From: Rhodospirillales bacterium Ga0074136
GTDB lineage: Bacteria; Pseudomonadota; Alphaproteobacteria; Acetobacterales; Acetobacteraceae
Assembly (NCBI GenBank): GCA_001464375.1
Contig: LNEW01000082.1
Location: 1-64,000, forward strand
Direction of reading: 5' to 3'
DNA length: 64,000 bases
In this document: positions 20,930 through 36,694 of the stretch, in pieces
Position numbering within the stretch: position 1 is the stretch's first letter
Layout: each line of letters begins with the position of its first letter
Translations under genes and position numbers: made by a program
Notes under the pieces: model-generated
Told to the model about the DNA's origin: nothing
Databases searched by the model: none
Seen by the model: the letters and a program-made list of their open reading frames with translations, nothing else

Positions 20930-21321
20930 CCACGGGCCGCTTCCTGCACACCATGATCCGGGTGGGCAACCTCGACCGCTCGATCGCCTTCTACACCAAG
21001 CTGCTCGGCATGACGGAGCTGCGCCGGCGCGACGTGCCGGACGGCAAGTACACGCTGGCATTCCTGGGCTACGGCGAGGGCAACAAGGAAGGGCAGGGCG
21101 AGATCGAACTGACCTACAACTACGGCGTCGAGAAGTACGACCAGGGCACCGCGTTCGGACACCTGGCGGTCGGCGTGCCCGACGTGGCGGCGGCCTGCGA
21201 GGCTGTGCGCAGCGGCGGCGGCAGGGTCACGCGCGAGGCGGGTCCGGTGAAGTTCGGCACCACGATCATCGCCTTCGTGGAAGACCCCGACGGCTACAAG
21301 ATCGAGCTGATCCAGCGGTGA
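20926..21321 (+). CDS. gloA: Lactoylglutathione lyase (glyoxalase I)
   Basis: Glyoxalase I, 131 aa, converts the methylglyoxal-glutathione adduct to lactoylglutathione. It has [19 protein letters not shown] (metal-ligand His near the N-terminus), GHLAVGVPD, and the C-terminal [10 protein letters not shown] with the last metal-ligand Glu. ATG 20926 overlaps the lpxI stop. The final 31 bp form the left attachment site of the element, so the integrated state keeps a complete enzyme. A copy of the same coding end stands at 39309-39341, 11 bp before ycjX. Confidence 0.95.
21289..21319 (+). repeat. attL: left core repeat in gloA
   Basis: 31 bp from the codons for [10 protein letters not shown] plus the first base of the stop. 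It matches attR at 30 of 31 positions. The target is the 3' end of a protein gene rather than a tRNA. Confidence 0.9.
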
Positions 21322-21376
21322 CCTGTTGAAGTCCCGTCGCTTCCCGCAAGCGACCGGAAATCAAAGGCTTATCTGC

Positions 21377-21486
21377 TGGCGGAGCTCCCGCCGTTCCCGT
21401 ATGTTCCCGGCCAGTCCCGCCGTTGGTCCGCCAGACTTCCGCCAGCGAGGGGTCTGCTCCGCCAGGAGCTCCGCCACGGTGGCGGA
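21377..21486. repeat. Cluster of six TCCGCCA repeats (candidate integrase arm sites)
   Basis: The 7-mer TCCGCCA occurs at 21427, 21438, 21458 and 21470 on the + strand, and reversed (TGGCGGA) at 21377 and 21480. Neighbouring copies are 11 or 12 bp apart, one helical turn. The surrounding consensus is gcTCCGCCAg. Two further copies lie beside attR (39252, 39263). Arm-type binding by the integrase or an excision factor is the best explanation; it is inferred. Confidence 0.65.
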
Positions 21487-21515
21487 GCGGGCGGGCCTGA
21501 CGGGAGGCACCTTCG

Positions 21516-22574
21516 ATGGCGCACATTCAGAAGCGCGGCGATCGGTGGCGGGCGGAGGTCCGCCGCCAGGGCGTCGGCCGGTCCAAGAGCTTCGCGACCA
21601 AGAAGGATGCCGAGGCCTGGGCGCGGCAACTTGAGACTGGGATCGAACGCGGCCTGGTGGTCACCGCCGCGGGCGCATCCGGCACCCTGGCCGACCTGCT
21701 GACCAAGTACGAGGAGGACGTCTGGCCGCTGAAGAAGTGGGGCACGTCCAAGGCCTACGAATTGAAGCAGCTTCGTGCGGACCTCGGCACCAAGACCGTT
21801 CGCAACATCGACCGCACGATGATCACGGAATATGCGAAGGGGCTTCGCGAGCGCATGGGCGGTGCCGGCGTCGCAACCCGGCTGTCCTATCTGGTGGAAG
21901 TGTTCCGGGCCGCGCGTGATCTATGGCAGGCCGCCGTGCCGCTGGAAGATGCTGAGGCCGCGGTCGCCTCGTTGAAGCGGCAGAAGGTGCTGACGCGCAG
22001 CCAGCCGCGCACCCGTAGGCCGCTGGATAAAGAACTCGACCGGGTGGTGGCCTACGCCACAGCGTCGGCGAAGATGGAGGTAGACCTCGCCGCCATTGTG
22101 ACGGTGCTGCGGGTGCTTCCTCTGCGCATCGGTGAGCTGTGCGCGATCGAATGGGATGACCTCCGGCCTGGCGAACGCGCCGTGGTCATCCGCGCGCGTA
22201 AGCATCCCGACGTGCTGGTGAAGGCCGGCAACGACTACGTGGTGCCGCTGCTGACGGTGGACGGCATCGACACCTGGGAGCTTGTCAGCGGGCGCCCGCG
22301 CTACTTCGACCGGCCGTTCCCGTATATCCGGCACACGGTTTCCTCGTCGTGGTGGGTCGCGGCGAAGGCGCTGGCGATTGAGGATCTGCACCTGCATGAC
22401 CTCCGCGCGGGCGCAATCTCCCGTCTGCTGGAAGCCGGCGTGCCGGTGCCCGTGGTGGCGCATCTGAGCGGGCACCGGAATTGGAAGGTCCTGGCCAAGC
22501 ACTACACCCGGCTCGACCCGTCCAATATGCACGAGACGGTCGCACGCTTCTTGGCGGCGGGCGCTGCGTCATGA
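21516..22574 (+). CDS. int: Tyrosine recombinase/integrase
   Basis: Site-specific integrase of 352 aa that should catalyse integration and excision of the element. The N-terminal part (MAHIQKRGDRWRAEVRRQG) is an arm-binding-type domain, a SAM-like core-binding domain spans about 55-155, and the catalytic domain follows. Active-site residues visible are Arg204 (LRIGEL), His294 and Arg297 (HDLR), His320 (GHRN) and Tyr330 (HYTRLD). GGGAGG precedes ATG 21516. The gene starts 197 bp inside attL and points into the element. Its stop overlaps the next gene (ATGA). Confidence 0.95.
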   Translation: MAHIQKRGDRWRAEVRRQGVGRSKSFATKKDAEAWARQLETGIERGLVVTAAGASGTLADLLTKYEEDVWPLKKWGTSKAYELKQLRADLGTKTVRNIDRTMITEYAKGLRERMGGAGVATRLSYLVEVFRAARDLWQAAVPLEDAEAAVASLKRQKVLTRSQPRTRRPLDKELDRVVAYATASAKMEVDLAAIVTVLRVLPLRIGELCAIEWDDLRPGERAVVIRARKHPDVLVKAGNDYVVPLLTVDGIDTWELVSGRPRYFDRPFPYIRHTVSSSWWVAAKALAIEDLHLHDLRAGAISRLLEAGVPVPVVAHLSGHRNWKVLAKHYTRLDPSNMHETVARFLAAGAAS

Positions 22575-22951
22575 GCCGGCAAGAGATGGATGCGCTCGTC
22601 GCCCTGGTCCGCAGCCACGGCGCCGAGACACTGGCGGAGTGGGCGCGCGGGGTCGATGCGCTCATGCAAATGGGCGAGGAGTGGAACGGGGCGGAGTGGA
22701 CTACGTCGCGTAGCCTCGGCCGACCGGGGCATGATCCTGTGCGGCTCGCGATCCTCTGGCGGCTGATGGTGGTCCAGCGCCAGGCCGCCGGGCGCAAGGT
22801 CTCGCGGCTCGGTATTGCCGAGGACGCGGCGACCGCGTTGGCGATGGGCGATCCGACGGTGCGCTGGGCGCTGGGCGTCCGTCCTGGTTCCCCCGGCCCT
22901 ACGGTGGAGGCTGTCCGCTCCCTGTTCCGCGGCCCGGACTTCCCGGTATAG
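22571..22951 (+). CDS. Unknown protein coupled to integrase
   Basis: A 126-aa protein of no recognised family. It is predicted mostly helical, with a central LAILWRLMVVQRQAAGRK segment and a C-terminal Pro/Gly-rich end. ATG 22571 overlaps the integrase stop codon (ATGA), so it is translated with the integrase and might take part in recombination control. That role is inferred only from position. Confidence 0.65.
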   Translation: MSRQEMDALVALVRSHGAETLAEWARGVDALMQMGEEWNGAEWTTSRSLGRPGHDPVRLAILWRLMVVQRQAAGRKVSRLGIAEDAATALAMGDPTVRWALGVRPGSPGPTVEAVRSLFRGPDFPV

Positions 22952-23068
22952 GCCCGCTTCTGCCCGGAGTGTCGGCTGCGGGGTGTGTGAGAACCCCGCC
23001 GCGCTTTTCGGTTTATCCACACAATGGGCCTGATCTACGTGGTGTGTCCCCTCAATGGACGGGACACC

Positions 23069-23344
23069 ATGCCGACCACCAGAACCGCGGCCTCGGCCGC
23101 CTCCGATCCCCCCAACACCGCCACCACCGCTAGGCGCCGCGCGCTCCTCGAAAGCCTCGGCCTCATGGAAGAGGACGAGGTTGCCGCGTTGTTCGGCTGC
23201 TCGGTGAAGGCGTTACGCAACCGTGCCCGCGTCGACAAGCCCGATAGCGTGAAGCTGTCGGGCAAGCGGCTCTATCCGAGGGATGCGGTGCTTGCGTTCA
23301 TCGAGCGCCGTCTCGAACGCGCGCTGCCGTCGCGCGCGGCCTGA
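23069..23344 (+). CDS. AlpA/Xis-like helix-turn-helix protein
   Basis: A 91-aa protein with a C-terminal HTH_17-like module: LMEEDEVAALFGCSVKALRN is followed by a wing-like strand (KLSGKRLYPRDAVLAFIE). This layout is typical of excisionase/AlpA-type proteins that bind att arms or switch on the element's genes. The first 30 residues are Ala/Thr-rich and disordered. ATG 23069 follows GGACGGGA; ATG 23024 is an alternative. It lies between the integrase pair and the replication operon, as in many satellites. Confidence 0.72.
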   Translation: MPTTRTAASAASDPPNTATTARRRALLESLGLMEEDEVAALFGCSVKALRNRARVDKPDSVKLSGKRLYPRDAVLAFIERRLERALPSRAA

Positions 23345-23524
23345 TCGGCTGATCGGCTCCACGGCGACCGTCAACGCAATCCGCGCTGACGTGGCCACCA
23401 TCAACCGCAAGCTGGACCGGCTGCTGGCACACATCGGCCGCGCGGAAACCTGAACCCCCTTGCTCGACGTGCCTAACGGCGCCTGCCCGCGCCGACTTCC
23501 CTGAACCCGAATGGAACCCTGCTC
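23345..23524. other. Control region before the replication operon
   Basis: A 180-bp gap. It holds a LexA-type box at 23503-23517 just before the ATG at 23525. An open stretch of about 34 codons that ends at 23452 looks weakly protein-like but has no ATG or GTG near its beginning, so I do not call it a gene. Confidence 0.5.
23503..23517 (+). promoter_or_regulatory. LexA-type box before the replication operon
   Basis: GAACCCGAATGGAAC, that is GAAC-N7-GAAC, the reverse complement of the alphaproteobacterial LexA box GTTC-N7-GTTC. It ends 7 nt before the ATG at 23525. The same motif stands before lexA in this window (61921). Confidence 0.6.
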
Positions 23525-24187
23525 ATGATCCCCGACTCCGAATGGCGGCCGCGCGGCTGGTCCGCGGGCGACAACCTCGCGCCGCGCTTCAAGGCGCTGC
23601 TGGCTGAACTCGGCGGCTGGCGTCAGCTGCCGTTGGTGCCGCCTGATCTGGTGGAACGCATCGACGTCCTGGCGCATCCGCTGAACCAGGAGCCGAAGCG
23701 GCGCTATCACCCCGATGAGCACCTGACGGCCTCCCTTGATGTGCGCGCGATGGTCCTCAAGCCGCTGGGCTTGAGGACCATGGCGGGCGAGGTGAAGCAC
23801 GCATGGATGATGAAGCCGAACGCGCAAGGCGCCCGGTGGCGTGTCTATGACCATGGCACGCGGCTGGTGGATGCAGAATCGTCCGTCGCGAGCAAGCAGC
23901 CGCGCGCATGGTGGCAGGCGCCCTACATTGACTCGGACGGGATCGAGGTCGACGCCGATCCCCAGGCGGATGCGCACGCCTATGTTGCCGGAATGGTGCG
24001 GCGGCTGAACGCATCGAACCTGCGCGCGGTGGTGCTTGGTCGCGGCTCCTACCACTTCGCTGCGGTGGACTTGATGGTCTGGCACGCGGAGGACTGGCAG
24101 GACCGCGACATGGCGGCGAGGTTCATCGACCGTCCGCAAGCCGCGGCGCTGCCGGCCTTTGACGTGGTGCCGCCATGGTTCTGGTGA
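23525..24187 (+). CDS. Unknown protein preceding the VapE-like ATPase
   Basis: A 220-aa protein with no recognised family. It is rich in aromatic residues and has no membrane segment or signal peptide. It lies directly behind a LexA-type box and 180 bp ahead of the VapE-like gene on the same strand, which is where satellites often carry a primase or replication accessory gene. No primase motifs are visible to me. The only obvious start is ATG 23525; it lacks a strong ribosome-binding site. Confidence 0.7.
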   Translation: MIPDSEWRPRGWSAGDNLAPRFKALLAELGGWRQLPLVPPDLVERIDVLAHPLNQEPKRRYHPDEHLTASLDVRAMVLKPLGLRTMAGEVKHAWMMKPNAQGARWRVYDHGTRLVDAESSVASKQPRAWWQAPYIDSDGIEVDADPQADAHAYVAGMVRRLNASNLRAVVLGRGSYHFAAVDLMVWHAEDWQDRDMAARFIDRPQAAALPAFDVVPPWFW

Positions 24188-24367
24188 AGGCGGCAACGGC
24201 CGCCGCGCTGGGGAACGCGGCGGCCGCCCTGACCAGGGAACCCTTTACGCGCCGGGGCGGCTTGCCCTCCGCGTCCGGCGAACCGGACGTGGCAGCGGGC
24301 GCTCGTCATGTCACTGACCAATCCGCCCAGGGCGGGCCGATCGGGCCTGCCACCGGAGCGCGCCCCC

Positions 24368-26161
24368 ATGCCTGACTCCGCGCAGACCGGTGCGCATCCA
24401 TTCGACTTGATGGACGCCGCGGAGCTGATCGACACGCTGGCGCGGATGACGTCCGCGCGAATCAGCCAGCATGAGCACGCCGCGAGGCGGCGCTTTGTAG
24501 AGCTTGGCGTGCCCGGCTGGCTTGGTCGCGTCATCGCGCGGCGGGCGGAGCTTGGCATCGCGGACGCGGAGGGCGAGGAGGCCGATGATGATGCAGCGCC
24601 GCCGCGAACTGGTGCGCGGCAATCGCGCTATTCGGCGGCCGACCGTGCATTGAACGCCATTGCCGCCAATCGGGCGGACACCGGGCCGGCCTTCGATCAA
24701 GGCGTGCTGGCCGAGCTTCACGCCATGCGCATCGAAGATCCCGGGAAGTATGAGGACTACCGAGCCACATTCAAAAGCCACGGCGTGCGCGTCCCCGCGC
24801 TTGAGCAGGCGATGAACCGGTGGGCTTCGCGCGGTCGCTCGACGCAAGGGCCGCGGGAGGACGAGAACTCCGGAACCGCGAACTGGCCGGGGATGTGCCA
24901 GCAAAACCAGCGCGGCGAAATGCTGGGCAACCTGCACAATGCGATGGTGGTCCTGCGCCATGAACCGGATCACATGAACATCCTGGGCTTCAATGAGATG
25001 ACCAGCTCGGCAGTGATCAAAGCCGGCACCACGTGGCAGGCTTTGACCGATGCGCACGTGTCGGCGCTGCAGGAGAAACTTCAGAGGCTTGGCCTCAAAT
25101 CGATCGGCTCCGACGTGATGCACCAGGCCGTCGCGCTGCGTGCGGACGAACGGCGCTTCCATCCCGTGCGCGACTACCTGCAAGCGCTGCGATGGGATGG
25201 TGTGGGGCGGCTCGATACTTGGCTGGCCACATACTGCAACGCCGGCGATGCCGATGCGGAATACCTGAACGTGGTTGGTCGATGCTTCCTGATCGCGATG
25301 GTCGCGCGCGTCATGCGCCCCGGCTGCAAGGTCGATCACGTGATGATTCTTGAGGGCGAGCAGGGCATTCGCAAGTCCACGGTGGCGCGCATCCTGGGCG
25401 GCGACTGGTTCTCCGACAGCATGCCGCCGATCAGCGCGGGCAAGGATGCGATGCAGCACCTGCGCGGCAAATGGCTCATCGAGCTGGGCGAACTTGCCGC
25501 CATGCGCCGCGCCGAGGCTGGCCACCTCAAACAGTTCCTCACGGTGACGACGGACAAGTATCGGCCGAGCTATGGGCGCAATGAAGTCGAGTATCCCCGG
25601 CAGTGCGTCTTCATCGGCACCACGAACGAGATGCGCTACTTGCAGGACGCCACCGGCGCGCGGCGCTTCTGGCCAGTGCGAGTTCTGGGCGAATGCGACA
25701 CCGACGCCCTTGTGCGGGATCGCGACCAGCTTTTCGCCGAGGCCTTCGACGCCTTCCGCAAGGGCGAGGTTTGGTGGCCGAAAGGCGGTTTCGAGCGCGA
25801 GTACGCGCGCGCCGAACAGGAGGATCGGCACACCGCCGATGAGTGGCAGGATGAGGTCGCCCGCTTCCTAATTGACAAGCGCACCATCGCTATCCGCGAT
25901 GTGCTGATTGACGGTCTGAAAATGCCGCTCGACCGGATTGACGAACTCCCGACCAAGCGAGTGGCGGCGATCCTGCGGCGGCTGGGCTGGGTCCTGCGGC
26001 GGAAGACGCATGTTCGCTGGTGGGAGCCTGGACCGCACTGGCAGTCCGTGCGCGACCAGTATCAAGCTGAGGCCACGGAACGGGAAGCGACGCGCCATTA
26101 TCAGGCCGGGCGGTTGCCGATCGGTGCCTGCGGGAATGCTGACGAGGATATTCCGTTCTAG
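24368..26161 (+). CDS. VapE-family replicative ATPase/helicase
   Basis: A 597-aa protein of the virulence-associated E family, superfamily-3-like ATPases used for replication by satellites and phages. Walker A GEQGIRKST lies near residues 330-339, Walker B is WLIELGEL about 40 residues later, and sensor-like motifs KYRPSYGRNEVEYPRQ and FIGTTNEMRYLQD follow, then GARRFWPVRV. The N-terminal 250 residues have no visible primase motif. The C-terminal part ends in a winged-helix-like region that could bind the origin. I chose ATG 24368 because GGAG lies 9 nt upstream; ATG 24308 is possible. A probable origin follows directly. Confidence 0.9.
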   Translation: MPDSAQTGAHPFDLMDAAELIDTLARMTSARISQHEHAARRRFVELGVPGWLGRVIARRAELGIADAEGEEADDDAAPPRTGARQSRYSAADRALNAIAANRADTGPAFDQGVLAELHAMRIEDPGKYEDYRATFKSHGVRVPALEQAMNRWASRGRSTQGPREDENSGTANWPGMCQQNQRGEMLGNLHNAMVVLRHEPDHMNILGFNEMTSSAVIKAGTTWQALTDAHVSALQEKLQRLGLKSIGSDVMHQAVALRADERRFHPVRDYLQALRWDGVGRLDTWLATYCNAGDADAEYLNVVGRCFLIAMVARVMRPGCKVDHVMILEGEQGIRKSTVARILGGDWFSDSMPPISAGKDAMQHLRGKWLIELGELAAMRRAEAGHLKQFLTVTTDKYRPSYGRNEVEYPRQCVFIGTTNEMRYLQDATGARRFWPVRVLGECDTDALVRDRDQLFAEAFDAFRKGEVWWPKGGFEREYARAEQEDRHTADEWQDEVARFLIDKRTIAIRDVLIDGLKMPLDRIDELPTKRVAAILRRLGWVLRRKTHVRWWEPGPHWQSVRDQYQAEATEREATRHYQAGRLPIGACGNADEDIPF

Positions 26162-26164
26162 CCC

Positions 26165-26517
26165 ATGACGGCTGCCGTCATGGTGCCGGATGTCCAGCCG
26201 CCGAGAACCGATTGATTCGTCAAGAAAGATGATTGGCCGGCGCGCCGGCATGACGGCACATGACGGCATGACACCAGATTTCCCGGAGTTGTTCTCAGAA
26301 GGCGCGCTGCCCTGGTTATCCACCGGTATCGGGTGGTGGTTATGTGAGCCGGGCTACGTATTCAACCACCACCCGATACCCCGGCACACATACTCACCCC
26401 ACCCGCTCCAACAAAGAATTGTGCCGTCATGCCGTCATACAGATGCGGGCCTTCCAAGTGTTCCGCGGGTTTGCCGGCATGACGGCACCATGACGGCAGC
26501 CCCCCGGCCGCCGTCAT
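26165..26517. repeat. Nine ATGACGGC iterons in two clusters
   Basis: Exact copies of ATGACGGC begin at 26165, 26250, 26260, 26479 and 26490; reverse copies (GCCGTCAT) begin at 26174, 26423, 26431 and 26510. The pair at 26165-26181 makes a palindrome. The first four copies lie left of the 26325-26380 hairpin and the other five lie right of it. A degenerate copy (ATGACACC) adjoins at 26268. Confidence 0.85.
26325..26380. repeat. 17-bp inverted repeat at the centre of the iteron region
   Basis: GGTATCGGGTGGTGGTT (26325-26341) is the exact reverse complement of AACCACCACCCGATACC (26364-26380), with a 22-nt loop. No T-run follows, so it is not a terminator. Its central position among iterons fits an origin structure. 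Confidence 0.85.
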
Positions 26518-26884
26518 GGTGTCATGCAGGCCGCCCGTCCGGCGGCTGATGGCGTAGGGCGCCGCGTCGCCCGCCGGCTTCATGGTCGTGGCCAGCCGCG
26601 GTGCCGCCCCGCATGGATCACGCTGCAACCTTGATGCCGACTCTCGCCGATCCTGTTCTCGTCCCGATGCTGCCAATCGCGGCCCGCATCTGCACGCTGC
26701 ATTCGCACGTCGCATTCGCGGCAGCGCGCGGCACCACCCACGGCGGGGTGCGTTCGCTGGCAGCATCGGGGGGGGGCGACATTTCGCCTCCCACCGCTCG
26801 ACCCATACCGGTGGGGGAAAACGACCTTCGCCGAATGGCCCCGAAAAGCGCCCCCCGCATTTCTCCACGTGAAAGGCAGTGCCG

Positions 26885-27328
26885 ATGAACGGCGGACAAT
26901 TCCGATCGAAGTGGCGGCGCGGCGCGCCCGTGCCCGCGGCAACCATCCGCGCGCCATCGCATTTGAACGCCGCGCAACGCAGGGCTTTCGATGAAGCCCT
27001 GCGCAGCCGCCCCGGCTTCTTCACGGAATCGGATGTGCGGCTGCTGAGCGCGTATGCGATCGCCGCCGCGGCGGTGGAGGAATTGGAGCGCCATCCTGAG
27101 CGCGCCGAAACACCGACCAGCTATCGGCGTGCCGTGGACACCATGCTGCGCTTCTCCAAGGCGCTGCGCCTCGCGCCATCCGCGCGTGCCAACAACGATG
27201 ACGCCGTGCCACCGCCGCCGCCGCTGGCCCCCGGCGACGACAGCGCCGGCGCGTGGCACCACGCGGCGCGCGATGCCGATCCCGCCACCCCGGCGCCCTG
27301 GGTGAACGCCGCCCGCCACGACGCGTAG
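26885..27328 (+). CDS. P27-like phage terminase small subunit
   Basis: A 147-aa protein matching the pattern of P27-family small terminases: PSHLNAAQRRAFDEAL, FFTESDVRLLSAYA, an exchangeable helix, then TMLRFSKALRLAPSAR. A Pro/Asp-rich 40-residue tail follows. Small terminases recognise the packaging site on DNA. AAGG lies upstream of ATG 26885; GTG 26879 is an alternative. No large terminase is present in the element, so it may redirect a helper phage's packaging motor, as in PICIs. Identification is by motif memory, not a search. Confidence 0.7.
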   Translation: MNGGQFRSKWRRGAPVPAATIRAPSHLNAAQRRAFDEALRSRPGFFTESDVRLLSAYAIAAAAVEELERHPERAETPTSYRRAVDTMLRFSKALRLAPSARANNDDAVPPPPPLAPGDDSAGAWHHAARDADPATPAPWVNAARHDA

Positions 27329-27337
27329 GAGGCGCGC

Positions 27338-27799
27338 ATGTCGATCGACACCACCTTCGCGCTGGACAGGTCCGCATCCGATTATTCCCGCGGCGGCGGA
27401 TCGCGCGGCGGCACCCGCACCGACGGCACCAGGCGCTTCACCGAAGTCGGCGCCGATTGCCCGCCCGGCCCGTTCGCCGACTTCGCCGCGTTGGTGAGGA
27501 GCTACGATGCCGCGCGCATCAGCACCGGCCGCCCTATCGCCGGCGTCGCGGCCGTCGTCGCCGCCGCCCGCGCCCGCGGCTTCCGGGCCGGTGTCCACCC
27601 GGAGCGCGTCCTCCGGGACCAGCTGGCCGCCATGCGGGCCGGCCCGGTGGCCATGGTCGCGGCCGCCCGCGCCGCCGCCGATCCCGAGCGAATTATCCGG
27701 GAGGAGCTGGCGGCCATCCGCGCCGGTCCCGCGGCCATCGCCGCCGCCGCCCGCGCCGCCGCCCACCCCGAGCCCGTGACCCCACCCGAGACCGACTGA
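27338..27799 (+). CDS. Unknown protein with Ala/Arg-rich internal repeats
   Basis: A 153-aa protein. Its C-terminal half contains two near-identical repeats of about 28 residues, each reading PER(V/I)(L/I)R(D/E)(Q/E)LAA(M/I)RAGP followed by an AAAARAAA-type stretch; a third, weaker copy precedes them. It is probably helical. The gene starts 9 nt after the small terminase stop with GGAGG before the ATG, so it is in the same operon. No function can be assigned. Confidence 0.65.
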   Translation: MSIDTTFALDRSASDYSRGGGSRGGTRTDGTRRFTEVGADCPPGPFADFAALVRSYDAARISTGRPIAGVAAVVAAARARGFRAGVHPERVLRDQLAAMRAGPVAMVAAARAAADPERIIREELAAIRAGPAAIAAAARAAAHPEPVTPPETD

Positions 27800-28035
27800 C
27801 CCCGACCCCGGTTTCCCCGGCCAGGGCTGGCCAGGACGGCCGCCCGGGCCGCCGGGCGCCACCCATCCCCGCCGGCCGGCCCCGGAACCCTTCCACGCGC
27901 AGCCCTGGCCAAGGACGGGCCGACCCGGAAAAGCGCGCGGTGCGCCGGTTTTTCCAGTGACCTGACCCCTGCTTCCGGGAGCGTGGTCCCCGTGGTCCGC
28001 CCATCGCCCGGCGGATTGCCCGTGGAGCCGCCGCC
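27800..28035. other. Gap with no clear gene
   Basis: 236 bp of very C/G-rich sequence (many CCGGCC and GGCC steps). Frames are open on both strands because of composition, not evident coding. I see no operator or terminator. Confidence 0.4.
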
Positions 28036-28344
28036 TTGCCCGACCCCGACCCGTCCCCGCTCACCCCCGCGCCGCGCCCGGCATCGGCGCCGCTGGCGCT
28101 GTGCGCGGGCGGTGAGGGCATCGGCATCCGCGGTGGCGCGCGGCTGCTTCCCCCCGGCGCGTTCAACGCGGCCGTCGCCGCGCGTCGGGCCGAGATCACC
28201 GCGGCTGTCGTCGCCGGCACCATGACCGCAGCGCGAGCTGACCTGTTCCTTGCCGGCCTCGACCAGCTGACCGCAGCGCGCGCCCACCTCGCCGCGCACA
28301 TGTCCTCGCTTGGACTTCCACCCCCATGGAGTACCCTGCAGTGA
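28036..28344 (+). CDS. Small helical protein, unknown
   Basis: A 102-aa protein beginning at TTG 28036, with GGAG 8 nt upstream as support. A Pro-rich first 25 residues is followed by an amphipathic helical part (FNAAVAARRAEITAAVVAG, ADLFLAGLDQLTAARAHLA). It overlaps the start of the next gene by up to 19 nt. No family is recognised. Confidence 0.55.
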   Translation: MPDPDPSPLTPAPRPASAPLALCAGGEGIGIRGGARLLPPGAFNAAVAARRAEITAAVVAGTMTAARADLFLAGLDQLTAARAHLAAHMSSLGLPPPWSTLQ

Positions 28345-29159
28345 GCACCGCGAACGGCCCGCCCTTCCGACTTCTGTTCGACCAGCCGCCAGAGCCTGAG
28401 TGCATGGCGCCGCACCCTGACCAGCCCGGCGCACGCGGCCTTCACAGTATCCCCAAGCGCAAGCCCATCGCCGTCCTGCCTGCCGACTTCCTGATCCCGG
28501 CGGACCAGCGGCGCGACGTCGCGCAGCAGCGTGTGCTGTTCACCGCCCTGGCGGCGTTCATCTTCGGCAGCATCCGCGGCGCGCCGGTTCCGGCGCCCGA
28601 AGTCGCCATCGTGCCGAACGGCTACTGGCAACCCGCCGGCGCCGACATCGGCGGCTTCACCGAAGCGACGGGCGACGGCTTCACCATCTGGATACCGGCG
28701 GCGGGTCGCCACGCCAACGCAGCACCGCCCCGCGGTGAGCTCTGCACCCACGGCCTGCACCCGCACACCGCCGCGGCAGTCTTCATCCACGAATGCGCGC
28801 ATGTCGTTCAGCTTGCCGAAGCCGATGACCTTTGGGCGGCGCTGAGCAGCGCATCGCAACGTGACCTGCACGGCTACGACTTTGCACAGGCCGCCGCGCG
28901 GCTGGCGCAGGGGCTGTGGAACGACACCATCCCCTCGACATGCGACCTGATGCGCTTCCCGCTGAACGCCGGACCAGGGGCCGCGGCTTTCGTCAGCCAG
29001 GTCGCGAATCGTCTGGGACGGATCGCCGCACCGATGGGCCATGTCGCCCCGCAGAAGGAGGGCGCCTGGCTGGTGACCCCGCGGCTCTACAACTCCCAGC
29101 TCATGGACCCGGCCGACATGGCAGCGCCGAACGCGAGGAAGCAGGAGCGCGCATCGTGA
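28326..29159 (+). CDS. Putative zinc metallopeptidase-like protein (HExxH)
   Basis: A 277-aa protein with the zincin motif HECAH at residues 155-159 in AVFIHECAHVVQLAEADD, so a zinc-dependent hydrolase is plausible. No signal peptide is visible; the region before it is globular. The third zinc ligand is not obvious, and the family is not recognised. GTG 28341, which overlaps the previous stop codon (GTGA), is an alternative start. Its own stop overlaps the next start. In a satellite, candidates include an ImmA-like anti-repressor protease or an anti-host effector, but this is inference. Confidence 0.68.
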   Translation: MEYPAVSTANGPPFRLLFDQPPEPECMAPHPDQPGARGLHSIPKRKPIAVLPADFLIPADQRRDVAQQRVLFTALAAFIFGSIRGAPVPAPEVAIVPNGYWQPAGADIGGFTEATGDGFTIWIPAAGRHANAAPPRGELCTHGLHPHTAAAVFIHECAHVVQLAEADDLWAALSSASQRDLHGYDFAQAAARLAQGLWNDTIPSTCDLMRFPLNAGPGAAAFVSQVANRLGRIAAPMGHVAPQKEGAWLVTPRLYNSQLMDPADMAAPNARKQERAS

Positions 29160-29734
29160 GCGACACGACGAACGTAGTGGTCCTGCCGCGCCTGTCCCAT
29201 CGCCCGACCGATATTCGTGAGATCGACTACCTGATGTTTCAGGCCGGGCAGATCGACGGTGCGGTAAAGGTCTGGGTTGCGGACCGGCCGCTGACCGCAA
29301 ACGAATGTGCGAAGGCATACGCATGGCTAAGTGCGGCGATGCCCGAGCAGGTCCCCGACCGCGCGCGGGTGTGCCGCGACTACGCGCTGCAAGCCCGACG
29401 CCAAGCCAGGGCGTTCGCGGCCTGCGCACGGGCGCTGCTGTCGCGGTCCGACGAACCCCTGGCGACGGTTTCGCCATCCCCGGGCTCCGGTGTCGCGGAG
29501 ACGCGCGAGCTGCTGAACATCGCGGCGACGCTGGTCGGCCCCCTTGGGCACAAGGAGGCGTCGAACCGCGACGCGGTGTTGCTCGAACTGGAAGGGATCG
29601 CCGCGCGCTTCACGAGGGCCGCCGCTGCCATGGCGGCGTGGGATGATGCCCTCTCGGCCCTTCGGTCCGAGACGGACGGCGAACGCCTTTTCCGCGTCCT
29701 GGGCGACGCAGAACCGCATGAGGGAATTTGCTGA
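29156..29734 (+). CDS. Unknown protein in coupled operon
   Basis: A 192-aa, mostly helical, cytoplasmic-looking protein. The start is GTG 29156, overlapping the HExxH gene stop by 4 nt. Arg/Ala-rich helices dominate (ALQARRQARAFAACARALL). Its stop codon overlaps the next ATG by one base. No family is recognised. Confidence 0.65.
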   Translation: MSDTTNVVVLPRLSHRPTDIREIDYLMFQAGQIDGAVKVWVADRPLTANECAKAYAWLSAAMPEQVPDRARVCRDYALQARRQARAFAACARALLSRSDEPLATVSPSPGSGVAETRELLNIAATLVGPLGHKEASNRDAVLLELEGIAARFTRAAAAMAAWDDALSALRSETDGERLFRVLGDAEPHEGIC

Positions 29735-30108
29735 TGACCGCCACCCAACAGCCCGATCGGAAGAACGACGCCGCCACCGTGCGCGACAAGGCCATCCTGT
29801 CCGCGGTGGCGCAGCACATAGACGAGCGGCTCGCCGCGGTCCTGGCGTCCGCACAGGCCCGCTCGGAAGAAAAGGTCGCGGCTGTCCGCGCGTCCACGGA
29901 AGCGCTTGCACGCGAACTGCACGCCGGCGTGCGTGACGTTCAGTCTCTCGCGGCATCGACGGATGCCACGCTGCGCCGGATCGAAGAGGAGCGTATGCGG
30001 CTGACCGCGGTGAACGTGGCGCGCATGAACGTCCTGACCTCCAACGTCGGGCAATGGCTGGACCGCTGCGCGCCGCCCGAGTTCGCCCCCGCGACCGTGG
30101 AGACCTGA
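29734..30108 (+). CDS. Coiled-coil protein, unknown
   Basis: A 124-aa protein with a long predicted coiled coil from about residue 15 to 100 (ERLAAVLASAQARSEEKVAA, then STDATLRRIEEERMRL). It has no membrane segment. ATG 29734 overlaps the previous stop (TGATG). It could be a structural or oligomerising accessory factor; no function can be assigned. Confidence 0.65.
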   Translation: MTATQQPDRKNDAATVRDKAILSAVAQHIDERLAAVLASAQARSEEKVAAVRASTEALARELHAGVRDVQSLAASTDATLRRIEEERMRLTAVNVARMNVLTSNVGQWLDRCAPPEFAPATVET

Positions 30109-30111
30109 GAC

Positions 30112-30519
30112 ATGCTCACGCGGCCCCATCTTTCAGTCGCGGCGCTGGCACGCAAGGCACGCCACGCGCGGGCGAAACAGCGCGCCGCGGAGGCCATCGC
30201 GCGGTCGAAGATGAAGGACCCACCGCGCACCGGCGGCATCGCCCCGCGCGCGATGGACGTGGCGGATGCCGTGATCCACGAACTCAAGGTCCGCGCGCCG
30301 GGGCGTGTCGGCTGGGAATACGCTGCCCTGCCCAGGCTGTACGACGGCGCGGGCGGTATCCGATCCGTGGCGATGATCAGCGGCGCGGACCGCACGGTGC
30401 TGGTGGCGGTGACGGCTGCCGGCGAACTGCGCTGCGATGGGCGCGCCATCGACTCCCTTGGGGAGGCCATCGCCGCAGTCGGTGGGGTGCTGCGGCACAG
30501 GACCGTCGCTGCGAGGTAA
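30112..30519 (+). CDS. Unknown basic protein, last of the left operon
   Basis: A 135-aa protein with a strongly basic N-terminal third (ARKARHARAKQRAAEAIAR), which suggests nucleic-acid contact, then a beta-rich C-terminal part (VLVAVTAAGELRCDG). It starts 3 nt after the previous stop. It ends the run of tightly linked genes from the small terminase onward. No family is recognised. Confidence 0.62.
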   Translation: MLTRPHLSVAALARKARHARAKQRAAEAIARSKMKDPPRTGGIAPRAMDVADAVIHELKVRAPGRVGWEYAALPRLYDGAGGIRSVAMISGADRTVLVAVTAAGELRCDGRAIDSLGEAIAAVGGVLRHRTVAAR

Positions 30520-30686
30520 GACGACGGCTGTCTGTGTTGCCAGGCGGTAAGTCGATGTTCCGCGCCGTTCGCGCCCCGATGCCGGCGACTCCACTAAATG
30601 GATGATGTGGTGCCCCTCAAACAGATGCCATAGTTGGCGTCCGCGCACATTCCAAAGTCAGTGGAATCCAAAGGAGCATGCAGAAT

Positions 30687-31817
30687 ATGCGTTTGCTTCA
30701 AGATTCAGCATTCCTGAGCGCCACGATCGGTTCAATCTATGACTGCGTGCTCGACCCCGCTCGCTGGCAAACCCTGATGCCCGAGCTTGGCGCCGCTATT
30801 AGCGCCCGCCGGACTTATCTCGGGATGATGACTCCTGGCGGTGAAAGCCGGGGACGAGTATTCCTGCATGGATATCCGCAGGACGACCATATCCGGCACT
30901 ACAGCGCCATCAATCCATTCGGTCCACTCGGGCTCGTGTACCCGATCGACAAATCCTACGTTGCTTCACGGGATTATGGCCTGCCCGCATTGAAAGCGAC
31001 CCGATACTATGGCCAGGTGCTGGCGCCGCGAGGCGACCTGGATTGCATCACGTTCGTGATGGTCCGCGAGGGCGATGCCTACGCCCAATGGATGCTCGTC
31101 ACTCAGGATGATCGAGAGCCCATAACGCCCGAGGAGACGGCCGGCTTTGAATTGATCGCGCCGCATATGCGCCGTGCGGTCGAGATCTCCAACGTCTTCG
31201 GCCTGCAACAACTAGCGGCGGAGACGTTTCGAGCCGCCCTGGGGGAACTCGAGGCCGCCGTGCTCATCCTGGATGAGCAGCGCCGCCCGACCTACGTCAA
31301 TCCGCGCGCCGAGGCTACGCTCTCCCAAGGGGTGGTGCTCCGCCTGCACAATCAACGTGTGGTCGGCGCGACCCGCGCCGCCGAGGACGCGCTTCGCCGC
31401 CTCACCCAGGGCAGTTCCGCGGGGAAGCCGGGCGGCTTCGAAGCGGTGCTGCACGGCACGGATGGCGAGGAGCGTCTGCTCTTCGCGGTCGCGCTGGACG
31501 CCAGTTCAGAGGGCGTTTTGGACCAGCCGGCGCGCGCGTCGTTGCTGGTCCTGCGCTCGCCGCGCGAAGACACACGCAATCCGATCGCGATTGCGGCGCG
31601 CGTCTTCAACCTGACGCCGGCGCAGGTGCAGGTGCTGACGTTCCTGGCGCAAGGGCAGACGCCGGATGCGGTTGCCGACATTCTTGGCATCTCGACCGCC
31701 ACCATTAGGTCGCATCTGTCTGACCTTTTCCGCCGGACCGGGACTTCGCGTCAGGCGGAGCTTGTGGCGCGCACGCTCTCCCTCGCCTCGCCGCTGCGGC
31801 CCTCGAACGGTGAGTAG
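30687..31817 (+). CDS. LuxR-family transcriptional regulator
   Basis: A 376-aa regulator. The last 65 residues are a LuxR-type HTH: FNLTPAQVQVLTFLAQGQ, then DILGISTATIRSHLSDLFRR. The N-terminal 300 residues contain a PAS-like segment (LEAAVLILDEQRRPTYVNPR), so it probably senses a small molecule. GGAG at 30673-30676 suits ATG 30687; ATG 30678 is also possible. By eye its GC content is lower than its neighbours, a sign of separate acquisition. It precedes, on the same strand, the hydrolase-like and MFS genes it may control. Confidence 0.85.
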   Translation: MRLLQDSAFLSATIGSIYDCVLDPARWQTLMPELGAAISARRTYLGMMTPGGESRGRVFLHGYPQDDHIRHYSAINPFGPLGLVYPIDKSYVASRDYGLPALKATRYYGQVLAPRGDLDCITFVMVREGDAYAQWMLVTQDDREPITPEETAGFELIAPHMRRAVEISNVFGLQQLAAETFRAALGELEAAVLILDEQRRPTYVNPRAEATLSQGVVLRLHNQRVVGATRAAEDALRRLTQGSSAGKPGGFEAVLHGTDGEERLLFAVALDASSEGVLDQPARASLLVLRSPREDTRNPIAIAARVFNLTPAQVQVLTFLAQGQTPDAVADILGISTATIRSHLSDLFRRTGTSRQAELVARTLSLASPLRPSNGE

Positions 31818-31976
31818 GGCCGGCGTCGCGTCGTAGCCACAAAACCTTGATGCGGCGAGTTCGCCCTCAGTTGTCCCTCTCCTCCAAACGGATGATGCGG
31901 AAGATGGAACGAGTCTGAAAGGCTCGTCCTCGCCTGCTCCGGTTCCGCATCGGGAGGAGCCGGGGAGTGATCACTC

Positions 31977-32756
31977 ATGCCCAACAGGCTCGGTCGCCGC
32001 ATCCTGTCCGCCACGCTCGCTGCCGGACTGGCCGGCGCGGCCAACGCACCGGCCGCAAGGCTCGCAAATGACGCGCTTGCCCAGTCCGGTCGGGCACCGG
32101 CCGAGGTGGAAGCGAGAACCTTGGCAAGTCCGACTCCGCCGACCGGTTCGCCGCCGCCACTAGTCGTCCTGGTGCCCGACGCGACCGGCGATCAGGCCCG
32201 CAGCGAGCCTTACGTCGAGGCGTTAGCCCGGTTGGGCTTCGCGACGGTTGTGCTCGGCATCGAAGACCAGGGCGAGGGCGATCGTGCCTCGACCGCGCCA
32301 TCGCCCGGCCGCGCCGCCAGCGAATTTGTGCGCATCTGGGCGCACGCCGAGGCGCCGAGCCTAAGAGGGCGGCGCATCGCCATCATGGGCTTCGGCGCCG
32401 GCGCGCGGGTTGCGCTGACAATCGAGGATGCACCAGTGGTCGCGCTGGACCCCGGCTGTCGGGGCCTCGTCCTCCCGCCGGCGTCGCGCCAGGCATTGCT
32501 CGTCCATGGCCTCGCGGCTGCGGACGCCGCGCAATGCGTGGCGCTGGAAGGCACGGCGGGGCTTGCGCGGTTGCCGCTGCCGGGCATCGGCCATGGCTGG
32601 GACCTGCCGGCCTTTGCCGCGCCTGGGGGTGCGCTGCTGCCCGATCCTTCCGGTCCAGGCAGGCGCCGCGCTGTGCCCGACCCGATCGCCACCGCCGCGG
32701 TGGCCGAGGCAGTCGCCGGATGGATCGCCGGACTTATGCGCGAGGCTCCACCGTGA
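31977..32756 (+). CDS. Exported alpha/beta-hydrolase-like protein lacking the nucleophile
   Basis: A 259-aa protein with a signal-peptide-like N-terminus (about residues 1-28). The core follows the dienelactone-hydrolase pattern: PLVVLVPDATG, then the nucleophile elbow at residues 138-142, then His206 in GIGHGWD. The elbow reads GFGAG, with Gly140 where Ser or Cys should be, so ordinary esterase activity is unlikely. Its stop overlaps the GTG start of the MFS gene, indicating coupled translation. A binding or chaperone role is possible; that is inference. Confidence 0.72.
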   Translation: MPNRLGRRILSATLAAGLAGAANAPAARLANDALAQSGRAPAEVEARTLASPTPPTGSPPPLVVLVPDATGDQARSEPYVEALARLGFATVVLGIEDQGEGDRASTAPSPGRAASEFVRIWAHAEAPSLRGRRIAIMGFGAGARVALTIEDAPVVALDPGCRGLVLPPASRQALLVHGLAAADAAQCVALEGTAGLARLPLPGIGHGWDLPAFAAPGGALLPDPSGPGRRRAVPDPIATAAVAEAVAGWIAGLMREAPP

Positions 32757-34774
32757 GCCCTTTGCCAGGCCGGTTCGATGCCCTTGGCCCGGTGGTCACA
32801 ACGCCCCGGCACCCACGGCGGCCGCGGAAACCCCGCGGGCCGGGTCTCTTTGCGGGCTGGCGCGTCGTCGCAGGCGCCTTCCTGCTGGTGCTTGCCGGCT
32901 TTGGAGCGATCTACTCCTACGCCGCCTTCGCAGATGCGATTGCCGAGGCGTTTGGCGCAGACCCGGTTGCCGTGTCGTGGGTCTACGCGCTGAGCGGCGG
33001 CGCCTGCTTCATGGTCAGCGCTGTCAGTGGGCCGCTGGCCGATCGCTTGGGCCCCCGCGTGCCGGCGCTGGCGGGCATGCTGATGGTCAGCCTCGGCCTG
33101 ATGGTCGCGGCGGCGGCGACCAGCCTGGTGGAGATTTACGCGGGCTACGGGTTGCTGATCGGCTTGGGCACCGGGTTCGCCTATGTACCGGCCATGGCGG
33201 CGGTGCAGCGCTGGTTTACTGCGTACCGCGGCCTCGCCTCTGGCATTGCGGTGAGCGGCATCGGCGTAGGCACAGCCCTGGTCCCGCCAGCCGCGGACGC
33301 CTTTCAGGCGGTTTTCGACTGGCGCGCGACCTTCGTCGTTTTCGGCGTTTTCGTCGCGGTCGTCGGCACTGCTGGCGCCCTGCTGCTCGAGCCCGGCGGC
33401 CGGCGCAGTCCGGGTCGCGAGGCAGTCGCGCCGCAGGACGAGGATGCGCCGCCGCCGACGTTGCCGCCTGTGGTGCGCACGCGGGCCTTCGCGCTGGTCT
33501 GGCTTGGCACGTTGTTGGTGTCGGTGCCGGCCATGCTGCCGCACGCGATGCTTGTGGGCACGGCACGGGACCTGGGACTGGCGCGCAGCGACGCGCTGGC
33601 GCTGCTAGGGCTGATCGGACTGGGCACCATTGCCGGGCGCTTTCTAATCGCGGCGGTCGCGGACGCGATCGGGCGGCGCCGAACCTTCCTGGCCTGCTGT
33701 GGCGGGATGGCAGCCAGCATGGCTGTCTGGGCATTGGCCGAGGAGGAGCCGGCCCTCCAGGCCTTTGCGCTGGTCTTCGGCGCCTTGCAGGGCGGCTTCG
33801 TCGCGTTGCTACCTACCTTTGGTGCGGACAGTTTTGGGGCTCGGTCGGTCGGGGGCGTACTGGGTGCGCTCTATACCAGCCGTGGCTTCGCGCTGCTTCT
33901 TGCGCCGCCGGCACTGGCTGCCGCCGTAGTGGCGGCGGGGCACCCAGTCCCGATCCTGGCGGTCGGCGCGATTGGGTTGGCGGGCACCGCGCTTCTGGCG
34001 CGCACGCCGCGCGCGCCGGTGGAGCCGCCGGCCATGCCGAGGGAAGCGTCCGACCATCTGCGTAGACACGCCCTGCCACCGCAGCGCCAGGTCGTGCTCG
34101 CTCTCGCCCTGCTGCTGATGCTTTCGCCGGTGCCGGCTTACGGCCACCGCGAACTCTCCCTGCCAACCCTGTTGTGGTCCACGCCTGCTGCAGCGCCGGG
34201 CGAGGCGACGCCATGCGCGCGGCCGGTGGTACTGAATCGTCCCTGGAACTGGCAGGCGGGGGATACTGCGGTTGTCGTGGCGGGACCTTCTGGGTCCGGG
34301 TTCGACTTGGCTCGTCCGATCATCGCCGCGCTTATCGCCGAGCAGATGGCCGTGTTGGAACTGCCGGACACGCGCGCGAGCGGTGACGGCCACTGTGCCA
34401 AGGTGCCTGTCACCTCCGCCGGGCAACTGCTCGGGGCACTCACGGCGCTTCAGCGCGAATTGCGAGCCGGACTTGTTGTGGCGATCGGCGTCGGCCCGAC
34501 CGGCACCGTCGTGTTCAACGCGCTGGAAGAGGGGCACGCGGCGCGCCTGCTCGGTCCACAGGGACCGCGTTTCGCGGGTGCTGCTGTTCTGCGAGGGGCG
34601 GGCACGATAGCCTTCCGTGCAGGGACACCGCCACCGCGCGACGAACGTTGGATCGATCGCGCGCCGCATTTCTGTGCGACGCTTGGGCCATTCGTGGGAC
34701 GTGCCGGGTTCGGCGCCTGTGTCACCGCCATCTCGCCGGGTGAACTTCCACACAAGGTATCGCGGGGCCGCTGA
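32753..34774 (+). CDS. MFS transporter fused to a C-terminal hydrolase-like domain
   Basis: A 673-aa protein. Residues about 30-425 are a 12-helix major facilitator (GPLADRLGPRVPAL and VADAIGRRRT loops; oxalate/formate-antiporter-like). From Met428 a Pro/Arg-rich linker leads to a hydrophobic helix (QVVLALALLLMLSPVPAYG) that looks like a signal peptide, then a 210-residue soluble domain. That domain repeats the order seen in the gene upstream (VVVAGPSGSG, then IGVGPTG at the elbow, again without Ser). With twelve preceding helices, the tail would face the periplasm. GTG 32753 overlaps the preceding stop. The substrate is unknown. Confidence 0.82.
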   Translation: MSPLPGRFDALGPVVTTPRHPRRPRKPRGPGLFAGWRVVAGAFLLVLAGFGAIYSYAAFADAIAEAFGADPVAVSWVYALSGGACFMVSAVSGPLADRLGPRVPALAGMLMVSLGLMVAAAATSLVEIYAGYGLLIGLGTGFAYVPAMAAVQRWFTAYRGLASGIAVSGIGVGTALVPPAADAFQAVFDWRATFVVFGVFVAVVGTAGALLLEPGGRRSPGREAVAPQDEDAPPPTLPPVVRTRAFALVWLGTLLVSVPAMLPHAMLVGTARDLGLARSDALALLGLIGLGTIAGRFLIAAVADAIGRRRTFLACCGGMAASMAVWALAEEEPALQAFALVFGALQGGFVALLPTFGADSFGARSVGGVLGALYTSRGFALLLAPPALAAAVVAAGHPVPILAVGAIGLAGTALLARTPRAPVEPPAMPREASDHLRRHALPPQRQVVLALALLLMLSPVPAYGHRELSLPTLLWSTPAAAPGEATPCARPVVLNRPWNWQAGDTAVVVAGPSGSGFDLARPIIAALIAEQMAVLELPDTRASGDGHCAKVPVTSAGQLLGALTALQRELRAGLVVAIGVGPTGTVVFNALEEGHAARLLGPQGPRFAGAAVLRGAGTIAFRAGTPPPRDERWIDRAPHFCATLGPFVGRAGFGACVTAISPGELPHKVSRGR

Positions 34775-34935
34775 CGTCCGGTGCGGCCGGTAGTGTTGCG
34801 GCCTTCGCGCAACCTGGGGGCTCTCGGCAGACGAACCGGCACTGGCCGCGTCGCCGCCCTTCGTGGAGTTTTGGGTGCTTCGCCGCTTCATGCGAACAAC
34901 CGATCTGTGGATTGAGGACCCAGTGCCCGGGTTCT

Positions 34936-35670
34936 CTAGAGATCTTTGTCGGCGTAGTGTTCCGGCACTCCTGCCGGAATCGTCGCGCGCAGCTGCTCGG
35001 TTATCCGTTCACGCTCGGCCCCGTCCTGCTTCGCTCCGCGCGCCACGACGGTAAGCGCCCCATCCGGCAAGGGCCGCTGCAACGCCTTCGCCTCGGCCCA
35101 TGGCGCATCCATCCAGGCGTCGCGTTCGGCTTCGGTCGTCAGGATCACCGGCATCGCCTTCGGGTGGATCGCGCCCACCTCGGCATTCGGCTCGGTGGTC
35201 AGGAAGGCGAACAGGTCATCGATGGTCTCGCCATCCTTGACCCGTCGCACCGACGTCCACCCCTGCACCCAGATGCCGGCGAAGAAGGTGAGGGGGCGAT
35301 CTGGGCTCAGCGCAAACCACACCGGCGGCCGCGACCCATCCGGCAACACCTCGTTTTCAGAGAAGGAAGTGAAGGGGACCAGGCAGCGACGCTCGACACC
35401 AAGCCATCGACGCCAATGCGCCGAACCCGCGTTGCGGACGTTCGTGACGCCGGGATCGGTCTTCTTCCCGGCCAGCGCGAATTGCGGCGACGGCATCCCC
35501 CACTTGGCCATCCGCAGCTCACGACCTTCCGGCCCACTGGTGACGATGGGCGCGGGATAGTTCGGGAAGACGCCCGGCAAAGGCGGCATGTTGCCGACGT
35601 GATCGTGCCATGCCTTGGCCAGGGCGCGGATTGCCTCCTGATTGGAGACGATGCTGTAGAGGTTGCACAC
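34936..35670 (-). CDS. SRAP (HMCES/YedK-type) abasic-site crosslink protein
   Basis: SOS-response-associated peptidase domain, 244 aa from the proposed GTG 35670. The family uses Cys2, exposed by Met removal, to crosslink abasic sites in single-stranded DNA. Here the product begins (V)[16 protein letters not shown], and TNVRNAGS (Asn), [13 protein letters not shown] (Glu) and [10 protein letters not shown] (His) supply the other active residues. GGAG lies 9 nt before this GTG. The open frame runs on upstream with no stop for 123 more codons (see 35671-36039), so a fusion is also possible; it would bury the Cys. The operon begins behind a LexA-type box. Confidence 0.85.
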
Positions 35671-36039
35671 GGGCGCGTTCTCCGTCTCACGCATCAAGTC
35701 GGCATAGGCGGCCTCGAAATCGTCGGGCCAGTCTTCCGGGCTGAAGGGCGGGGGCCAAATGCCCAGCGTCTTCCAGTAGCGATGTTCGCGTTCAATGCGC
35801 CGGCGCGCTGGCCCCCACAGCCAGTCCTCGAAGTCGCGCGACACGACGGCGATGATCTGCATGGGCGCGGATGCGACGTCGCGAGGATCACCACCCGCGG
35901 TGAGATATGCGTCGCGCAGCCGGTGCGATGAATGCGGCTCGCGAAGGCCGACCGCGCAGTTCTCCCGATGCGCGACGCACACGGCGCGGACCACCTGCAC
36001 GGGCCAGCGATCGACCAGCCAGAATCGCGCATCGTTCAT
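35671..36039 (-). CDS. Unknown 123-aa segment in frame with SRAP
   Basis: ATG 36039 overlaps the preceding gene's stop (ATGA) and opens a 123-codon segment that runs without a stop into the SRAP frame; the ORF as a whole is 367 aa. The segment looks like a real domain ([40 protein letters not shown]) but is not a family I recognise. Either it is an N-terminal domain of a longer SRAP protein, or two products are made from nested starts (ATG 36039 and GTG 35670). Confidence 0.6.
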
Positions 36040-36281
36040 CTAAGCTGCCAGCCTTCAACGCCGGTGATGACGCCGCCTGCGCCGCAGGTCAGGCACCGCA
36101 GCCGCGGCCCGATGGTCCGAATGGGAAGGTTCAGCGGCAGGCGGTGGCGGCGGATCATGCGCGCGATATCCAGCCGTCCGACATTGCCGCACTTCCTGCA
36201 CGCCACCACCAGTCGGCATTCCTGATACCGCCCGATGGCCGCAACTGGCGTCGGCCGGCCGTCGAGGATGCTTGACCCCAT
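36036..36281 (-). CDS. Small zinc-ribbon protein
   Basis: An 81-aa protein with two Cys pairs, CRKCGNVG at the centre and [10 protein letters not shown] near the end, separated by a basic linker ([12 protein letters not shown]). This is a four-Cys zinc-ribbon layout. DNA or RNA contact is plausible. The gene lies 6 nt after the upstream gene and overlaps the next start by 4 nt, so it belongs to the SOS-type operon. Confidence 0.7.
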
Positions 36282-36287
36282 GCCCGG

Positions 36288-36536
36288 CTATTCAGGCGGC
36301 GTTCGCACCAGCCACGCCACGATCGCGACCGCCTCGGCGATGTAGGTTGCCGGCATGGCAGGACGCAGCGCGCGTGCGCGCTCGTGCGCGGTCTTCACCG
36401 CCTGGTCGTGCCCGACGCCGCGGGCAAGCTCGGCCTCGATGCCGCGTGCCAGCGCATCAAGAAGGCCAGGGGCAAGCCAGCCCGGTAGGGCGGCATCGGG
36501 TGGGGTGTCGCGCGGCATGACGGCCGGACTCAGCAT
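36288..36536 (-). CDS. Small helical protein, first gene of the LexA-box operon
   Basis: An 82-aa (or 76-aa) helical protein with no recognised family. The first ATG (36536) lies only 2 nt from the LexA-type box, so translation may instead begin at ATG 36518. Two helices (LLDALARGIEAELARGV, TYIAEAVAIVAWLVRT) flank an Arg-rich turn. Position at the head of the SRAP operon suggests a role in the DNA-damage response. Confidence 0.6.
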   Translation of the reverse strand: MLSPAVMPRDTPPDAALPGWLAPGLLDALARGIEAELARGVGHDQAVKTAHERARALRPAMPATYIAEAVAIVAWLVRTPPE

Positions 36537-36538
36537 GA

Positions 36539-36553
36539 GAACAGAACGCGAAC
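36539..36553 (-). promoter_or_regulatory. LexA-type box before the SRAP operon
   Basis: On the minus strand GTTCGCGTTCTGTTC, an exact GTTC-N7-GTTC. It stands immediately upstream of the 36536 gene and heads a four-part operon ending in SRAP. Compare 61921 (lexA) and 23503 (replication operon). Confidence 0.7.
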
Positions 36554-36694
36554 AAGCTCCACGTGATTGCCTATCTGTGGTGGCCCTGGCCTTACTCAGC
36601 CCCTACAGCTTGCAGCAACTGCATGTGGCGTGTCGTCGGCCGTGCAAAGACTGCTCACGATCCGGACGGCTTGTGAGTGGGAAGCGGCACCAGG

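Follow-up and report, generated by a model that had tools for sequence, protein, structure and literature searches.

According to the accessible part of its description (PMC6092414), the replication origin of PICIs follows rep and has a central region flanked by two sets of iterons; in Gram-positive PICIs, the origin lies 3' of the initiator gene, and plasmids carrying pri, rep and ori of EcCICFT073 are maintained, significantly more than those without ori or pri (p<0.0001). The portion of PMC7581432 available to us places the SaPI iterons and origin directly downstream of rep, where they are read by the C-terminal domain, and reports for Cch2 of SCCmec that binding survives removal of the inverted repeats but is abolished by removal of the direct repeats. 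In the archaeal plasmid pRN1, a 100-bp stem-loop located 3' of the gene for the primase-helicase is required; the encoded protein carries a winged helix at its C-terminus, and no iteron structure is described for the plasmid in the available sections of PMC4234260, which also present the oriV of RSF1010 (IncQ) as a combination of iterons and hairpins served by three separate Rep proteins. In excerpts of two further papers, a phage nuclease targets the iterons of a satellite, which may favour their change (PMC8263062), and VapE occurs 39 times as a name in streptococcal satellite prophages (PMC6813308). Among the papers listed by our searches, which covered few subscription journals, we recognised by title or abstract no description of VapE-linked origins in Acetobacteraceae or other Alphaproteobacteria.

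Within the window, by which we mean the whole 64-kb stretch of DNA analysed (64,000 nucleotides), positions 26165-26525 are most likely the site at which an 18-kb phage satellite of PICI-like type starts its VapE-driven replication. Judging from its sequence, this origin very probably belongs to the known SaPI/PICI kind; its iteron is private to it, its central hairpin is unusually long, and it would extend the SaPI/PICI-type origin to Acetobacteraceae and other Alphaproteobacteria. An origin had been proposed here in the initial annotation, and the reading very probably holds because of the homology of the initiator to a SaPI initiator, the position and layout of the arrays in relatives and the covariation of the iterons with the winged helix; circular plasmids with VapE as the only initiator-like gene among those listed for them lend it further support.

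The presumed replication initiator (Rep) is a VapE-family AAA+ helicase encoded at 24308-26161 on the + strand (PF05272, E 2.3e-76); its gene is open over 617 codons and starts, in the list of open reading frames, at 24308 and not at 24368 as annotated initially. A sequence search returned PDB 7pds (E 1.5e-42) as the sole solved relative up to E 1, and in a Foldseek fold search the same entry, titled PriRep1 with dsDNA and also named 'Similar to D. nodosus vapE', came first (1.4e-26), with the SaPI5 primase-helicase 7ola among the later matches. We take the 7pds protein to be a SaPI protein. No primase domain was recognised in the first 190 residues of VapE by Pfam and PHROG scans. The structural model (mean pLDDT 79) ends in a C-terminal winged helix, residues 512-576 (25841-26035, + strand), with a helix at 546-558 and strands at 561-566 and 569-574; we presume this domain, with its recognition helix at 25943-25981 and wing at 25988-26029, to be the iteron reader.

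As the initial annotation had noted, nine exact copies of ATGACGGC, five on the + strand and four on the - strand, span 353 bp (26165-26517) directly behind VapE, whose stop codon ends at 26161. The window contains 15 copies in total, compared with a mean of 4.66 and a maximum of 11 in 100 shuffles; at the shuffle rate, 0.026 copies would be expected per 353 bp, so the count is indeed far above chance, and ATGACGGC is the most clustered of all 8-mers in the window. The copies begin with an outer left pair at 26165-26181 (26165 on +, 26174 on -), followed by the inner left iterons at 26250-26275, all on +, which comprise exact copies at 26250 and 26260 and a degenerate iteron, ATGACACC, at 26268. 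Beyond the origin centre (26276-26422) lie the inner right iterons at 26423-26438 (26423 and 26431, both on -), a group of two copies and not three, and then the outer right iterons at 26479-26525 (26479 and 26490 on +, 26510 on -, and the second degenerate copy at 26518 on -). Both degenerate copies are additions to the initial annotation. The two inner groups are thus opposed and flank a central region, as the symmetry ascribed to the array implies, whereas the outer groups follow it less well. The centre is only relatively A+T-rich, with a G+C content of 0.56 over the 155 bp between the exact inner iterons (26268-26422), versus 0.70 around it. An origin extent of 26162-26884 had been annotated; the array accounts for the part up to about 26525, and nothing links 26526-26884 to it. 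A second inverted repeat of 13 bp (26663-26675 and 26758-26770, 82 bp between the arms) lies just to the right of the array.

The centre also contains the perfect inverted repeat described earlier, flanked by iterons: a hairpin at 26325-26380 with 17-bp arms (26325-26341 and 26364-26380, 17/17 paired) and a 22-nt loop. Of the perfect hairpins in the window whose loop measures 3-40, six have arms of at least 12 bp, and this one is the longest. Folding of the centre as single-stranded DNA gave a higher stability than folding of its shuffles (z -3.29 for 26276-26422 and -3.16 for 26268-26422). The optimum predicted for the entire centre, however, is a competing stem that leaves the 17-bp hairpin unformed; when the 56-base hairpin is excised and folded alone with RNA energies, the 17-bp stem does form. 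A pseudoknot of the centre of the type A-B-A'-B' was dropped after 365 of 2000 shuffles had equalled its pairing (segments without arm bases), and three matches in an Rfam scan all fell under their gathering scores. Exact matches to the hairpin arm in the same genome are the two arms only, and sites with three mismatches occur at control level. The arm also occurs exactly in four viral contigs; the DNA available for these contained nothing matching VapE and at most a single ATGACGGC in any 400-bp neighbourhood.

Compared with the described systems, the locus shares with the SaPI origin an initiator related to 7pds and iterons directly 3' of rep, and it differs in its iteron, its alphaproteobacterial host and its long perfect central hairpin. 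Like EcCICFT073, the island has the order int, alpA, rep, ori and two iteron sets around a centre; unlike it, no primase domain was recognised here and the TerS match is weak. A stem-loop 3' of a helicase gene whose product has a C-terminal winged helix is common to pRN1 and this origin, whereas pRN1 is defined by a stem-loop of about 100 bp without iterons and the present locus has nine iterons and a hairpin of 56 bp. The oriV of RSF1010 likewise has iterons plus hairpins but relies on three separate Rep proteins. Of the novelty suggested at first, the iteron, private to this element among the relatives examined, stands, whereas the arrangement had already been published as the PICI origin (PMC6092414, in its accessible part).

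In 55 of 299 genomes of the family, including the window's own, VapE has relatives at E up to 1e-30. Loci were gathered by profile scans of named genomes (best 80 of 333) and viral contigs (best 80 of 391), together with database records; scans for relatives based on single proteins confirmed none. From the resulting 222 loci, which include the window, 37 were dropped for sharing with another locus the first 200 bp behind the stop codon or for having less than 400 bp there. The remaining 185 loci, among them the window, were searched over 3 kb for their most clustered 8-mer, and in 118 its cluster starts between -60 and +500 of the VapE stop, where uniform placement would give 15.2. This excess persisted when kin with helicase cores at least 90% identical (99 of 163 loci; 13.5 expected) or at least 75% identical (72 of 125; 10.4 expected) were removed. 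Set against the rest, the near cluster won at 113 of the 185 loci, tied at 30 and lost at 42, and the stronger clusters elsewhere and the ties count against the reading as an origin. So do the merely relative A+T richness of the window's centre and its lack of CCTATA, the inner right group of two copies, the absence of this exact iteron from the relatives examined, and the incompleteness of the plasmid gene tables.

The near repeats vary by clade (CTGACGCA, ATGACGCA, GTGACGCA, GTCCCAAC, GGTTGGAC, GGGTGGCA and others), and among the 185 loci ATGACGGC is the near repeat of the window locus alone. A paired ATGACGGC search of 397 family genomes gave matches in 33, with 39 places outside the window's own genome, and none of the 20 places read had more than three copies in 400 bp. 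At the DNA level, relatives of 26162-26884 amounted to 11 plasmid records and one phage record, all of them short, chance-like matches. The initial annotation had named lack of conservation of the repeats in homologous elements as a refutation; this applies to the exact 8-mer, which is the array repeat of no relative examined, and does not apply to the array, which recurs. Outside Alphaproteobacteria (seven loci), the layout is less uniform, with clear arrays behind VapE in Marinobacter phage PS3, Corynebacterium phage StAB and one Paenibacillus plasmid, an array about 0.4 kb past VapE in Pseudomonas phage U5, a weak array in a Syntrophomonadaceae phage, and no clear array behind VapE in a Comamonas plasmid or in Bacteroides phage BF503P1.

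For the layout we considered 96 strong arrays, defined by a near cluster of at least five copies that beats the rest and by an alignable C-terminal domain. Opposed iteron groups stand around a centre in 89 of them, often with two or three copies at a spacing of 7-11 bp, and the centre, with a median length of 80 bp over these 89 loci, has a lower G+C content than its own locus in 82. With kin removed at 75%, the opposed layout was found in 52 of 57 arrays and the lower G+C content in 47 of 52 centres. The window's centre (155 bp) is the third longest of the 89. Perfect arms of at least 10 bp occur in five of the 89 centres, the window's being included and the longest; a fold z below -2 was obtained for 22 of 89 centres and 7 of 87 control stretches (rank test p 0.0014). 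Because few of the centres have such arms and the centres show this folding excess, the long hairpin is the extreme of a tendency and not a family feature; it is peculiar to this element and does not organise the family's arrays. CCTATA was found in 31 of the 89 centres, against 2.8 expected from base shuffles; neither it nor TATA is present in the window's centre. Besides CCTATA, the 89 centres are enriched in GGAAAA and TATATA, and these motifs may represent a conserved opening element. At three loci (L193, L216 and L091), each inner group is followed outward, at a distance of about 39-46 bp, by outer iterons, and L193 is nearly mirror-symmetric in this respect.

In pGO128 of Gluconobacter oxydans (circular, 4340 bp), VapE is the only initiator-like gene among the five listed in an incomplete table, and it is closely followed by the top repeat, though in only four exact copies. 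For Komagataeibacter pKNA06, 32 features are listed in a table likewise incomplete, and VapE is the sole initiator among them, with eight copies of GGGTGGCA from the VapE stop onward. We also observed, in contig C78 of the same genome as the window (40748-51303, L305, about 10.6 kb), an element with VapE, a large terminase (TerL), an HK97-type capsid, a portal and an integrase; no tail gene was recognised among the seven of its ORFs that were scanned, and we take it to resemble a capsid-forming PICI. Its VapE is 52% identical to that of the island over residues 187-576 and is followed by seven copies of ATGACGCA in opposed groups around a centre; it differs from the island in the last two bases of its iteron and in carrying TerL, capsid and portal.

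Across the 96 arrays, iteron similarity followed C-terminal-domain similarity once helicase-core similarity had been removed (partial r 0.31, 0/1000 permutations), and the reverse comparison was weaker (partial r 0.14, 4/1000 permutations), with the proviso that such permutations do not fully remove descent. Seven of the top 12 among 245 variable columns fall within residues 544-574 (rank test p 3.5e-5), a stretch chosen after the partial-correlation result had been seen; the leading columns are, in order, 546, 557, 564, 550, 570 and 565, in the recognition helix and the wing. Iterons with TGACGC were available from 69 loci, 49 without close relatives and 46 of those with a clear preceding base. 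Over these 46 loci, which do not include the window, residues 567 and 569 had the strongest association of 287 columns with the base before TGACGC, in a test chosen post hoc after the alignment had been inspected. Where C precedes TGACGC, residue 569 is E in seven of eight arrays, and three further E569 proteins pair with G (two) or A (one); V569 goes with G in 6/6 arrays, and most G arrays have other residues at 569. The window's own V569 pairs with A and is a misfit to this code, which this and the post hoc choice make slightly less probable. Its helix reads ELPTKRV, versus GTxxQRR in 27 of 49, in keeping with the altered 3' half of its iteron.

In a tentative picture, one we hold as possible rather than probable, wing residues 567 and 569 would set the base before TGACGC (E569 with C) and helix residues 546 and 550 the 3' half of the iteron. 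Cohabiting satellites and phages, such as the island with ATGACGGC and the C78 element with ATGACGCA, might then keep their origins apart by a few residue changes, and a pRN1-like hairpin would have been added inside a SaPI-like origin. With 96 strong arrays naturally paired to their initiators, origin recognition by self-loading helicases becomes directly testable, as does the way in which phages and satellites that share a cell separate their replication.

We propose that, after excision, VapE subunits would bind the 8-bp iterons through the C-terminal winged helix, and that each of the two facing inner groups would seed a helicase ring. ATP-driven action would open the centre and the rings would depart in opposite directions, with the outer iterons strengthening or limiting loading. 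Once a strand is exposed, the 17-bp hairpin may form on it and help with opening or priming. The island would presumably depend on a helper phage. What the computations establish is the gene family, the array and its layout, the island ends, the position of arrays across the family and the covariation; binding, opening, bidirectional departure, any part played by the hairpin and reliance on a helper are inferences.

Iterons often double as control sites, and only 0.35 kb separates the end of the array from the next ORF, so that the repeats could be operators through which VapE or another regulator controls downstream genes, with replication starting elsewhere. We consider this highly improbable: a consensus scan of 26000-27000 found neither a sigma-70-like promoter nor a terminator-like site, and opposed groups in 89 of 96 arrays suit loading more than repression. 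It is also unlikely, if less remote, that the hairpin is the actual origin and the iterons merely recruit the protein. Such an arrangement would recall the pRN1 stem-loop 3' of a primase-helicase gene with its C-terminal winged helix (PMC4234260, available sections), and it would fit the folding excess of the family centres over the controls, to which the window's own centre contributes a z of -3.2; against it stand the scarcity of long perfect arms among those centres, the competing stem predicted as the optimum of the window's own centre, and the dependence of Cch2 binding on direct and not inverted repeats (PMC7581432, available portion).

A further alternative, that the island has decayed and its origin no longer works, we regard as rather doubtful. 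An orphan gene as neighbour and weak matches for TerS and AlpA speak for it, but VapE is open over its 617 codons and keeps the stretch GEQGIRKST, which we take to be Walker-A-like, and nine exact iterons and a perfect hairpin have been kept.

The island itself is delimited by a 31-bp direct repeat, attL, at 21289-21319 at the 3' end of a glyoxalase gene, which agrees in 30 of 31 bases with attR at 39309-39339, the right end. DNA matches to relatives of the same genus end within a few bases of the attL end. In two of the three relatives examined, the end of the glyoxalase gene is directly followed by the sequence that here lies to the right of 39339; about 0.4 kb extra is present at this empty site in the third. 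Because of the att repeats and the empty site in relatives, we place the island at 21320-39339 (18,020 bp). It encodes, all on the + strand, a tyrosine integrase (21516-22574; PF00589, E 1.6e-14; phrog_1, 8.4e-42), an AlpA/excisionase-like HTH protein (23024-23344; PF12728, 21.3 bits with a cut-off of 27; phrog_66, 1.4e-5), an orphan protein (23525-24187) and, behind the array, a possible terminase small subunit (TerS; 26879-27328; weak phrog_83 match, E 6.8e-4) that is present in two of the 299 family genomes, its own included, and is too rare to be followed through relatives. The orphan has a weak phrog_32322 match only (E 0.084), with none in Pfam, NCBIfam or PADLOC, and an unusable model (pLDDT 30); it is present in one of the 299 genomes, its own. 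Among those island ORFs that were scanned, nothing matched a capsid, portal, tail or large terminase with E <0.01, and one tail tape-measure match was at chance level (E 0.048). Of the features that define PICIs, the island has its own integrase, a specific att site and, over the scanned ORFs, no full structural gene set, with AlpA and TerS as weak matches, and we take it to be PICI-like. Further genes are 36695-38026 (-), which encodes a PLD-family nuclease-like protein with weak matches to the defence proteins DrmC and DpdK and to an NgoFVII-type restriction domain, and, as cargo, 30678-31817 (+) for a LuxR-type regulator-like protein and 32534-34774 (+) for an MFS transporter-like protein.
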